From Candidatus Omnitrophota bacterium (GTDB lineage Bacteria; Omnitrophota; Gorgyraeia; Aquiviventales; Aquiviventaceae): a DNA stretch of 49,996 bases. Location: positions 1 through 49,996 of the forward strand of contig JACQWM010000028.1 in NCBI GenBank assembly GCA_016209275.1, read 5' to 3'. The notes beneath the pieces are model-generated. The model was not told the origin of the DNA and did no database searches. It saw nothing but the letters and a program-made list of their open reading frames with translations. Positions 13,534-31,878 of the stretch are shown here, piece by piece. The position numbers and the translations under genes were made by a program. Position 1 is the stretch's first letter; each line of letters opens with the position of its first letter.

Positions 13534-14412
13534 ATGACGCAATCACCTCATCACTCAATCACTCAATCACCCGTCGTTGTTCGGGTGGGTTCTCTCAACA
13601 TCGGCGCCGGCCAGCCGCTCGTGTTGATTGCCGGGCCAGATGTCATCGAATCCGAAAAACACCTTGCCTCGCATGCCGAACGGATGCGCACGATGTGCGC
13701 GAAGGCCGGCGTGTCGTACATCTTAAAATCCAGCTACGACAAAGCCAACCGCACCTCAGGGACCTCGTTCCGCGGCCCCGGCATCAAGGAGGGGCTGAAC
13801 ATCCTGGCCAAGGTGAAGAAGTCCGTGGGGGTTCCGGTCTTGAGCGATGTGCACTGCCGCGAAGATGTCGCACCGGCGGCTGAGGTGCTGGATGTGCTGC
13901 AAGTGCCGGCGTTTCTTTCGCGCCAGACCGATTTGATCATTGCCGTCGCCAAAACCGGCAAGCCGATGAATATCAAGAAGGGCCAGTTTCTCGCTCCGTG
14001 GGACATGAGGCACGTAATCGCCAAGGCTGAGTCTGCCGGCAATCATTCGATTTTGGTGACCGAACGGGGAGCGAGTTTTGGCTACAACAACCTGGTCTCC
14101 GACATGCGCAGCCTGCAAGTGCTCGCCGGTTTCGGCTACCCGGTGATTTTCGATGGCACGCACTCGGTCCAGCTTCCAGGCGGGCTTGGGGATGCCTCAG
14201 GCGGCCAGCGCGAATTTGTGCCGACCCTCGTGCGCGCGGCCGTCGCCACCGGTTTCTGCCACGGCATTTTCCTCGAAGTCCATGAGGATCCTGATCACGC
14301 TCCGGTTGATGGGCCCAATATGCTCAAACTCTCCAACTTGCCCCGCCTTTTAGACGAAGTCCAAGCTATCCAAAGAGCGATATCAGATATCAAACGGCCA
14401 TTTCATATCTGA
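13534..14412 (+). CDS. kdsA: KDO-8-phosphate synthase
   Basis: 292 residues. It condenses arabinose 5-phosphate and PEP to KDO 8-phosphate. LIAGPDVIESE, KSSYDKANRTS, FRGPGIKEGL, VSDVH-type LSDVHCREDV and FDGTHSVQLPGG match KdsA. The usual GPCVIES segment reads GPDVIES here. Residues 3-12 (QSPHHSITQSP) come from an 8-bp repeat array and the last ten residues (AISDIKRPFHI) from a palindromic element, so both ends of this essential enzyme are repeat-encoded. It starts 5 bases after pyrG. Confidence 0.96.
   Translation: MTQSPHHSITQSPVVVRVGSLNIGAGQPLVLIAGPDVIESEKHLASHAERMRTMCAKAGVSYILKSSYDKANRTSGTSFRGPGIKEGLNILAKVKKSVGVPVLSDVHCREDVAPAAEVLDVLQVPAFLSRQTDLIIAVAKTGKPMNIKKGQFLAPWDMRHVIAKAESAGNHSILVTERGASFGYNNLVSDMRSLQVLAGFGYPVIFDGTHSVQLPGGLGDASGGQREFVPTLVRAAVATGFCHGIFLEVHEDPDHAPVDGPNMLKLSNLPRLLDEVQAIQRAISDIKRPFHI
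13541..13572 (+). repeat. 8-bp repeat array at the kdsA start (ATCACTCA family)
   Basis: Begins AATCACC, then TCATCACTCAATCACTCAA and ATCACCC. It directly follows the ATG and encodes the N-terminal tail of KdsA. Confidence 0.8.
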
Positions 14413-14441
14413 TATGGTTTGGCCGTTTGATATCTGATATC
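14379..14441 (+). repeat. Palindromic element, double/chimeric copy
   Basis: Outer arms GATATCAGATATCAAACGG (from 14379) and its complement (to 14441) form a perfect 22-bp inverted repeat. The centre holds a further TTTCATATCTGATAT half of the common form, as if two copies had recombined. It contains the kdsA stop codon and ends 12 bases before kpsF. Confidence 0.85.
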
Positions 14442-15415: not shown

Positions 15416-15453
15416 GATATCAGATATGAAATGGCCATTTCATATCTGATGTC
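15416..15453 (+). repeat. Palindromic element copy 2
   Basis: 38-bp palindrome with arm GATATCAGATATGAAATGG; the right end reads GATGTC, one mismatch. It starts three bases after the kdsD stop and ends 22 bases before kdsC. Confidence 0.9.
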
Positions 15454-16195: not shown

Positions 16196-16414
16196 ATGAT
16201 AATGAAGAAATCAACCAACGGTCACGGACAACCGAAAGATCAGATCATGACGCTGCGCGAGGTGGCGAAGTACCTCGGCTTGCACGTCATGACCGTGTAT
16301 AAGCTCACCCGCGAAGGGCGCGTGCCGGCGGCCAAGATCGGCGGCCAGTGGCGCTTCAAGCGCGACGTCCTCGATGGCTGGCTCGAAGGCCAGATGCACC
16401 AGCACACCACGTAA
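16196..16414 (+). CDS. Excisionase-family (HTH_17) DNA-binding protein
   Basis: 72 residues. MTLREVAKYLGLHVMTVYKL followed by REGRVPAAKIGGQWRFKRDVLDGWL is the MerR-like winged-helix fold of the excisionase/HTH_17 family. These small proteins act as recombination directionality factors or transcription regulators. No integrase is in the window, so a regulatory role is more likely. ATG 16202 is an equally possible start. It opens the accessory island between kdsC and the lpx/lpt genes. Confidence 0.8.
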   Translation: MIMKKSTNGHGQPKDQIMTLREVAKYLGLHVMTVYKLTREGRVPAAKIGGQWRFKRDVLDGWLEGQMHQHTT

Positions 16415-16459: not shown

Positions 16460-16489
16460 TTGACGCCGTAGTGACGTTAGGGCTATACT
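16460..16489 (+). promoter_or_regulatory. Promoter of the riboswitch leader
   Basis: TTGACG 16460-16465 and TATACT 16484-16489, spacing 18. The expected start near 16496 leaves a leader of about 270 bases before the surface-protein gene. Confidence 0.7.
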
Positions 16490-16511
16490 TTTTATAGATA
16501 GACTGACGATA

Positions 16512-16609
16512 AGAGCACACCCCGCGTGGTGAGCGGGGGTCGCAAAGCCACGGGTCTCAGGAAGAAGATCGCCGGGTTGCCGAGGAATCTGAGATCGCCG
16601 AACTGCCGA
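16512..16609 (+). ncRNA. GEMM-type cyclic-dinucleotide riboswitch aptamer
   Basis: Hallmarks of the GEMM-I (cyclic di-GMP-I) aptamer are visible in order. GAGCACACC leads into a P2 stem CCCCGC/GCGGGG (16520-16525 with 16533-16538). GTCGCAAAGCCACGGGTCT follows from 16539. A P3 stem forms either as GGTCT 16553-16557 with AGATC 16566-16570, or longer as GGTCTCAG 16553-16560 with CTGAGATC 16589-16596. The closing GCCGGGTTGCCGA ends at 16583. The first P2-side base expected to read the ligand is G, favouring c-di-GMP over cGAMP, but this assignment is tentative. The closing segment occurs twice (16567-16583 and 16593-16609). Confidence 0.78.
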
Positions 16610-16668
16610 AGCCCAAGGCGGGCACCGCCGCGAATAGCGGTGGTCGCCGAAGGGCATACCGAGGCCGA

Positions 16669-16700
16669 AGGCCGAGGTAACCAGGCGGCTCGGCCTTTTT
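16669..16700 (+). terminator. Riboswitch-linked intrinsic terminator
   Basis: AGGCCGAG 16669-16676 pairs with CTCGGCCT 16689-16696, followed by a T run to 16700. An alternative hairpin at 16658-16678 (ACC-GA-GGCC, loop GAA) uses the same left arm, so the two are mutually exclusive, as expected for an expression platform. Confidence 0.8.
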
Positions 16701-16705
16701 AGTTC

Positions 16706-16743
16706 GATATCAGATATGAAATGGGCATTTCATATCTGATATC
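16706..16743 (+). repeat. Palindromic element copy 3
   Basis: 38-bp palindrome, arm GATATCAGATATGAAATGG; the centre reads ATGGGCAT, one mismatch. It lies between the riboswitch terminator and the surface-protein gene. Confidence 0.9.
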
Positions 16744-16767
16744 GCCTTAAGACTCAGGAGGCGAGGG

Positions 16768-17379
16768 ATGGGACGTTCAACGATGAAGGCTTGGCTGCTC
16801 GTGGGGTTGCTCCTCGCCACCGCCGGCTACGTGATCGCCGAGGAGATCACGCTGACCACCTACTACCCCTCCCCCCGCGGGGTGTACCAGGAGTTGCGGT
16901 CGACGAATAGCACCTTTTTGGCGTACAACAGCGGCAACGTGGGGATTGGGACGGATCAGCCGGATGCGCAAGCCAAGCTGGATGTTAGTGGGCCGGTGCG
17001 AATGGGAAACTTTGATAACGCCCATCAGCCGCCAGATAATAGCACGGGTCAACCGTGCGCGGAAGGTGCACTCTACTACAACACCGACCACCACGAGTTC
17101 CGCGGCTGTATGCAAGGCTTCTGGAAACCGTTCGGGAATGCTCCAGTACCTACCGGCTGGTATGGATCTTGTTCAGAATCTTCAGGGGTCGGACCACCGC
17201 TGAACATAGACGCTAGTTGTGGCGCTTCAGCGCCCGCGACTTGCAGTGGTATAACATGCGTCTGCCCGGCGGCAGACTATGTCAAGACGGTGACTGGAAG
17301 TATCATATGGGAACCTGATCCACCGGGCCATCCTGGGATGACACAAAGCGCCACGAGCTATAGCTGCTTGAAGAAATAA
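16768..17379 (+). CDS. Secreted surface protein of the EITLTTYYPSPRGVY type
   Basis: 203 residues. A signal peptide (about residues 6-24, AWLLVGLLLATAGYVIAEE) is followed by EITLTTYYPSPRGVYQELRS. NVGIGTDQPDAQAKLDVSGP, a segment common in phage-tail-fibre-like and adhesin-like proteins, comes next, then ALYYNTDHHEFRGCMQGFWK. The C-terminal third is rich in cysteine (eight in about 90 residues), implying extracytoplasmic disulfides. An AGGAGGCG ribosome-binding site precedes the ATG. The riboswitch leader suggests control by a cyclic dinucleotide, fitting a role in attachment; this is inference. Confidence 0.75.
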   Translation: MGRSTMKAWLLVGLLLATAGYVIAEEITLTTYYPSPRGVYQELRSTNSTFLAYNSGNVGIGTDQPDAQAKLDVSGPVRMGNFDNAHQPPDNSTGQPCAEGALYYNTDHHEFRGCMQGFWKPFGNAPVPTGWYGSCSESSGVGPPLNIDASCGASAPATCSGITCVCPAADYVKTVTGSIIWEPDPPGHPGMTQSATSYSCLKK

Positions 17380-17508: not shown

Positions 17509-17553
17509 ATGGTATTGACGATCAGAATACTAAAGTAATCCTGGAGGATGCCG

Positions 17554-17808
17554 ATGGCACAGGCCGTGAAAACCGCGATCAGTTTTCCCCGGAGCGAATT
17601 TACGCGCCTTGAACAGCTCTGCAAGCGCACGCATCATAGCCGAAGCCGGATCCTGCTGATGGCATTTCGGACATGGCTGCGCATGAGAGAGCAAGAAGCT
17701 CTTGAGGAACGCTATGTTGCCGGCTATGCGCGCCACCCCGAGCTTGCCGCTGATGTCGAGGGGTACTACAAGGCCGGTCTGACCAGTTTGGCACGGGATT
17801 CCTGGTAA
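17554..17808 (+). CDS. mazE: Ribbon-helix-helix antitoxin of a MazEF-type pair
   Basis: 84 residues from ATG 17554, placed 6 bases after GGAGG; ATG 17548 is too close to that site. The N-terminal KTAISFPRSEFTRLEQLCKR followed by HSRSRILLMAFRTWL matches ribbon-helix-helix antitoxins: a beta strand, then two helices. The acidic, less ordered C-terminus would wrap the toxin. It overlaps the toxin gene by one base. Such antitoxins repress their own promoter, and the 28-bp palindrome upstream is a candidate operator. Confidence 0.8.
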   Translation: MAQAVKTAISFPRSEFTRLEQLCKRTHHSRSRILLMAFRTWLRMREQEALEERYVAGYARHPELAADVEGYYKAGLTSLARDSW

Positions 17809-18122
17809 TGCAGCGGGGCGAAGTGTGGTGGGCCGAGTTACCGACACCCATCGGGAAACGACCCGTGGTCATCATCTCGCGTCAACGGGCCATTCAGGTG
17901 AGAGTCTCCATCATTGTGGCGCAAGTGACCACGACCATCCGCGACATTCCGGTTGAAGTCCCCCTGGGTCAGACGGATGGCATGCCAAAACGGTGTGTCA
18001 TCAACTGCGATGTGCTGACGACGATTCCCAAGGAGGCGCTCAAGGAGCGGATGTGCTTCCTGACTCAAGAAAAGCTGCTCGCCCTCCATGCCGCGCTTCG
18101 CTTTGCCCTTGGCTTGGATTAA
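17808..18122 (+). CDS. mazF: MazF/PemK-family mRNA interferase toxin
   Basis: 104 residues. MQRGEVWWAELPTPIGKRPVVIIS is the classic PemK/MazF opening with the conserved arginine. NCDVLTTIPKEAL and the C-terminal LTQEKLLALHAALRFALGL complete the domain. It is expected to cut RNA at short sequence motifs; the specificity cannot be read here. It is fully intact. Confidence 0.9.
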   Translation: MQRGEVWWAELPTPIGKRPVVIISRQRAIQVRVSIIVAQVTTTIRDIPVEVPLGQTDGMPKRCVINCDVLTTIPKEALKERMCFLTQEKLLALHAALRFALGLD

Positions 18123-20102: not shown

Positions 20103-20805
<703 letters not shown>

Positions 20806-31840: not shown

Positions 31841-31878
31841 GATATCAGATAAGAAATGGCCATTTCATATCTGATATC
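31841..31878 (+). repeat. Palindromic element copy 4
   Basis: 38-bp palindrome with arms as in copies 2 and 3, one difference (GATAAGAAATGG in the left arm). It fills most of the rseP-ispG gap and ends two bases before the first possible ispG start. Confidence 0.9.

Follow-up and report, generated by a model that had tools for sequence, protein, structure and literature searches.

The question raised by this locus is how the gene of a 203-aa protein with the motif EITLTTYYPSP is controlled by the structured leader in front of it: whether this leader is a riboswitch, in which direction it would act and to which signal it would respond. The initial annotation of the window (the whole 49,996-nucleotide stretch of DNA that was analysed) had proposed a promoter, a GEMM-like aptamer, an alternative hairpin, a terminator and the gene, in this order. 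Every piece is present and in that sequence.

The leader and its class

The features of the region are the following (window coordinates).

16460-16489, + strand: sigma-70-like promoter TTGACG-18-TATACT (10 of 12 consensus matches; TTGACG at 16460, TATACT at 16489)
16504-16584, + strand: c-di-GMP-I aptamer (RF01051); the A at the equivalent of Vc2 G20 is the second A of AGAGCACACC (16512-16521)
16526-16532, + strand: P2 loop GTGGTGA, best read from a comparison of 100 aptamers as GTGA (GNRA-type) enlarged by a GTG duplication
16551-16561, + strand: P3 5′ strand CGGGTCTCAGG, whose partner is the aptamer's own 3′ strand (P3) or the second copy (P3*)
16567-16584, + strand: aptamer 3′ strand GATCGCCGGGTTGCCGAG
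16589-16610, + strand: second copy of the aptamer 3′ strand CTGAGATCGCCGAACTGCCGAA, forming the 3′ side of P3* and the terminator 5′ arm
16551-16561 with 16589-16596: alternative hairpin, GGGTCTCAG (within the first segment) paired with CTGAGATC (the second) in the predicted fold
16597-16702, + strand: intrinsic terminator, GCCGAACTGCC (16597-16607) with GGCGGCTCGGC (16684-16694), then the U-run CCTTTTTAG
16612-16685, + strand: insert of ~75 nt in the terminator loop, containing two hairpins and carried by the window copy and not by its sisters L003 and L007
16706-16743, + strand: dispersed palindrome GATATCAGATAT...ATATCTGATATC, between the terminator and the ribosome-binding site; further window copies at 14379-14416, 15416-15453 and 31841-31878
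16768-17379, + strand: gene of the 203-aa protein, with a signal-peptide-like N-terminus, EITLTTYYPSPRGVY, an NVGIGT motif and a variable cysteine-containing C-terminus

The leader element is a genuine c-di-GMP-I riboswitch with an altered pocket. Its class membership and the order of its parts are established computationally: a covariance-model search gave RF01051 (c-di-GMP-I / GEMM-I) at 16504-16584 with 54.8 bits (E 4.4e-8, cut-off 35), bearing out the GEMM-like aptamer of the initial annotation, and this is the only over-threshold match in the 50-kb window among 4227 Rfam families. The sister elements score higher (66.6 bits for L003, 62.6 for L007). They also exceed the cut-off of RF03167 (c-di-GMP-I-GGC), whereas the window copy, at 52 bits, lies under that family's cut-off of 59. 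Folding of the 209-nt leader is better than that of all 200 of 200 shuffles (z = -3.59). Promoter-like sites number 6 in the region versus 1.2±1.2 in shuffles, a count that taken alone is weak evidence; comparable sites precede most sister aptamers. The 3′ part of the leader (16460-16767) carries the palindromic repeat, then the ribosome-binding site and the 203-aa ORF. A small helix-turn-helix protein (HTH_17, E 1.6e-17) is encoded at 16196-16414, directly upstream of the riboswitch promoter.

The terminator gave no match with the pattern scanner, its loop of 76 nt being beyond the scanner's loop-length limit. L003 has an identical terminator 3′ arm and a loop of 6 nt. The stem of the window copy contains an A-C mismatch. 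A stretch 77% similar to the loop insert is found at C15:22951-23012, within the leader of an interrupted element elsewhere in the genome (see below). The P2 loop is GNRA in 97 of the 100 aptamers compared, GTGGTGA being one of the three exceptions, and both sisters have GTGA. The window copy therefore lacks the GNRA/GYRA loop of RF01051, a peripheral feature and not part of the core fold. GYRA loops such as GTGA mark a c-di-GMP-I type said to be without a tetraloop receptor (PMC11218506), which makes the cost of the loop change uncertain.

A second strand copy and the direction of control

The segment that follows the aptamer repeats its 3′ end with 15 of 20 positions identical, as good a match as in none of 200 shuffles, and similarly good second copies exist in about 16 of the 100 elements. 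The second copy and its covarying P3* helix are both computationally established. In the 16 elements, the P3 5′ strands form 98 contiguous pairs with their own second copies versus 70.8±5.3 after permutation of the copies, the real value being reached in none of 5000 permutations; as the elements are related, this is evidence of covariation and not a formal phylogenetic test. The window P3* has 8 pairs and is intact. The alternative hairpin is the predicted fold once the stretch through 16589-16596 has been transcribed, and in a transcript that ends at the second copy, short of the terminator 3′ arm, P3* is predicted to be 5.0 kcal/mol more stable than P3. The preference holds in 9 of 11 elements and P3 wins in the other two.

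The full P3* overlaps the terminator 5′ arm. Since the second copy is both this arm and the partner in P3*, an OFF-switch is implied, and the platform is probably of the OFF type. Without ligand, the P3 5′ strand would leave its own partner and pair with the downstream near-copy; P3* would then occupy the terminator 5′ arm while the polymerase advances, and the gene would be transcribed. With ligand, the aptamer would be locked, leaving the second copy free to pair with GGCGGCTCGGC ahead of the U-run, and transcription would stop. The ligand usual for the riboswitches of this genome would most likely be c-di-GMP. In the window copy the response would probably be weakened or shifted by three changes: A in place of G20, the disrupted P2 loop and the terminator-loop insert. 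We infer that a riboswitch of the c-di-GMP-I class in this leader controls the EITLTTYYPSP gene via transcription termination, most likely in the OFF sense, and put the probability of this reading slightly above one half (0.52).

The full-length folds bring in the strongest rival. The lowest of them (-92.2 kcal/mol) has the terminator formed alongside the upper part of P3*, while the aptamer with the terminator has -86.8 kcal/mol and the full antiterminator -85.0 kcal/mol. At equilibrium the leader would thus terminate with or without ligand, so that switching must be kinetic and a locked or weak switch becomes a serious rival: the window copy would be decaying, bind its ligand poorly and work mostly as a constitutive attenuator. 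Apart from termination either way, this agrees with the coincidence of three departures (A20, GTG in the P2 loop and the terminator-loop insert), with the mismatch in the terminator stem, with a score below those of both sisters and with the published Bc1 element of Bacillus thuringiensis, which is apparently locked OFF (PMC11218506). The P2 and P3 stems are intact, however, the pairing with the second copy is long and unbroken, and promoter and downstream gene appear intact as well. On balance we regard decay as unlikely, without taking it lightly.

The ligand pocket and its signal

The covariance-model alignment places an A at position 20 (Vc2 numbering) of the window aptamer, with the equivalents of A47 and C92 present. 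The pocket was surveyed in 100 aptamers, 20 from this genome and 80 from relatives. A20 is found in four of the 20 (L004, L010, L018 and the window copy) and in one class relative, nearly all others having G. In L009, L011, L012, L013 and L014 (AAAGCCA...GGAAAGC) the pair G21-C46 below the ligand is replaced by C21-G46 with G20 kept, as is also the case in the relatives L098, L134 and L146; an assignment of A20 to those five aptamers was rejected when their sequences were read by hand. L015, L020 and L138 have C at the G20 position. At C14:19908-20053 and 20172-20313, a single gene is preceded by two consecutive aptamers, L019 with G20 and then L010 with A20, an arrangement that could possibly be a two-signal gate.

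Mutation of Vc2 G20 led to a 30,000-fold loss of c-di-GMP binding, as quoted at second hand in PMC4744006; A20 is therefore an argument against strong binding of c-di-GMP. It is also the hallmark of cGAMP riboswitches (PMC9481103). A natural A20-type aptamer, that of Desulfobacca acetoxidans, binds cGAMP markedly better and c-di-GMP perhaps slightly more weakly (PMC9481103). The window riboswitch might accordingly be a GEMM-Ib-like switch in which A20 prefers 3′,3′-cGAMP and which makes up a separate sub-regulon with L004, L010 and L018. The recurrence of A20 in this genome and in a relative, the D. acetoxidans precedent and the position of L004 before a prepilin-like gene agree with such a role. 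Against it stand the pair 21-46, which is G-C in the window and corresponds to C15 and G40 in the Geobacter cGAMP aptamer structure (PMC6274999), and the enzymes that were looked for. Hypr enzymes have the aspartate of GGDEF replaced by serine (PMC8835794). The genome encodes canonical GGDEF proteins, and all 50 of 50 motifs parsed in it and in its relatives (sampled at one or two loci per genome) keep the aspartate. No Hypr serine motif was found among them, nor in the genome's weak, degenerate or GGDDF proteins (L025-L027), which were read separately; the GGDDF variant also keeps the aspartate. No SMODS nucleotidyltransferase was found in the genome, which is 96.7% complete, so that the gene of a cGAMP synthase could sit in the missing part. 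We consider a cGAMP response quite doubtful.

As the searches for a cGAMP synthase gave neither the Hypr GGDEF nor the SMODS type, c-di-GMP is likelier than cGAMP to be the ligand of the window riboswitch, though its binding is possibly weak. There is a slim chance that the large regulon is divided between two dinucleotide signals, one for the G20-type and one for the A20-type aptamers, and that the second of these signals (cGAMP or another) comes from an enzyme outside both the Hypr GGDEF and the SMODS-type CD-NTase groups. A20 aptamers in a genome without a known cGAMP synthase provide a clean case for testing the reach of the G20A rule in ligand prediction.

Regulon, sister copies and known systems

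The genome (1.80 Mb in 63 contigs) has 20 RF01051 matches over the cut-off. A 21st element, with inserts within its aptamer, was located via its leader repeat, giving a total of at least 21, which exceeds the 17 GEMM-I riboswitches reported for Geobacter sulfurreducens (PMC6456294). No match was obtained in any of 14 control genomes. At least one is present in 39 of 40 relatives; same-family members have 1 to 25, and nearly all family relatives have several.

The first downstream genes code for EITLTTYYPSP proteins in three cases (L003, L007 and the window), an S8 subtilase (L006), an LVIVD-repeat protein (L001) and a response regulator (L017). That of L004 is prepilin-like, with an N_methyl match slightly below the curated cut-off; those of L008, L013, L014, L009 and L011 look prepilin-like by eye from their N-termini, and that of L018 codes, again by eye, for a large multi-helix membrane protein. 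Further targets are secreted-looking proteins without a family. The most notable aspect is this combination of pilin-like genes, EITLTTYYPSP proteins and a protease in one regulon. The kind of element is ordinary; what gives it moderate interest is that the regulon is large, that ON and OFF layouts occur together and that A20 pockets are present in a genome where no known type of cGAMP synthase was found.

Half-sites of the dispersed palindrome number 93 forward and 99 reverse in the 1.80 Mb, a control pattern having none, and copies lie inside the aptamers L008, L014, L015, L019 and L020. L002 (C42:11932-12073) precedes a Y1_Tnp (IS200-like) transposase. Transposases of this type are associated elsewhere with palindromic repeats, and a link between this enzyme and the dispersed palindrome is possible.

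The ON-type layout, in which the terminator is built from the aptamer's own 3′ strand, is seen in many elements (e.g., L001 and L010). An automatic sorting had placed the window copy and L007 in the same class; this was rejected on hand reading, both strand copies being able to pair with the terminator arm. ON logic is usual for GEMM elements of pili and adhesins. That the window copy should follow it, its own 3′ strand building the terminator without ligand, is very improbable: many relatives share the layout and the isolated duplex with the terminator 3′ arm is stronger for the own strand than for the second copy (-22.5 vs -19.2), but once the whole leader is folded, a terminator built from the own strand falls far behind in stability (-71.9 vs -92.2) and, with the own strand held by the ligand, the second copy would still form a terminator, making full relief impossible. 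Since a duplicated aptamer strand is what distinguishes the ON and OFF layouts found together in this genome, it becomes possible to test how switch polarity evolves.

The association of the riboswitch with EITLTTYYPSP genes recurs at L003 and L007 and, in another genome of the family, at L066. It is not general: the riboswitch precedes only L066 among six EITLTTYYPSP/PAP loci in other family genomes, and none of the EITLTTYYPSP/PAP genes at eight loci in G004 and further members of the class. The window copy and L003 are near-identical over the stretch that begins with the terminator 3′ arm and runs to around codon 40, with more divergence between their aptamers and no relation between their C-terminal parts. 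This pattern suggests a recent duplication or conversion of leader and N-terminal module, to which differing C-terminal domains were attached.

The initial annotation regarded the target as a cysteine-rich surface protein of an uncharacterised family. Searches of Pfam, PHROGs and PDB with the 203-aa protein returned nothing significant, in keeping with the latter, and a scan of named genomes gave one weak relative only. The single-sequence AlphaFold2 model is uninformative (mean pLDDT 37). The protein has 8 Cys in all and a conserved N-terminus made of a hydrophobic stretch followed by AEEITLTTYYPSPRGVYQELR. Judged from this signal-peptide-like N-terminus it is probably exported; a location at the surface, part of the original description, would be a further step from the same evidence. 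A modular, probably secreted protein family is in this way tied to second-messenger control alongside clusters of pilin-like genes. Farther downstream, a weak ribbon-helix-helix protein is followed by a PemK/MazF-like protein (E 3e-16) at 17548-18122, probably a toxin-antitoxin pair.

Compared with known systems, the window copy has in common with the RF01051 type (e.g., Vc2) the P1-P2-P3 aptamer with its conserved GCAAAGCC core, the equivalents of A47 and C92 and a place before genes of secreted or envelope proteins; it differs by A instead of G at position 20 and by GTGGTGA instead of a GNRA P2 loop. With the cGAMP (GEMM-Ib) riboswitches of Geobacter, such as that of pilM, it shares the A at the equivalent of Vc2 G20, and the regulon of this genome has pilin-like genes too, but the window keeps G21-C46 and the genome yielded no Hypr GGDEF. 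The closest parallel to the proposed mechanism is Cd1, a c-di-GMP-I OFF-switch of Clostridioides difficile in which an antiterminator competes with the aptamer and the terminator, the latter two being able to coexist (PMC9262584). The window antiterminator, as predicted from sequence, would differ in that the exchange of the P3 strand relies on a near-copy of the aptamer 3′ strand. The pilM element works as an ON-switch, its terminator taking in a strand of the aptamer itself (PMC9262584), and the ON and OFF layouts of this genome parallel the published contrast between pilM and Cd1.
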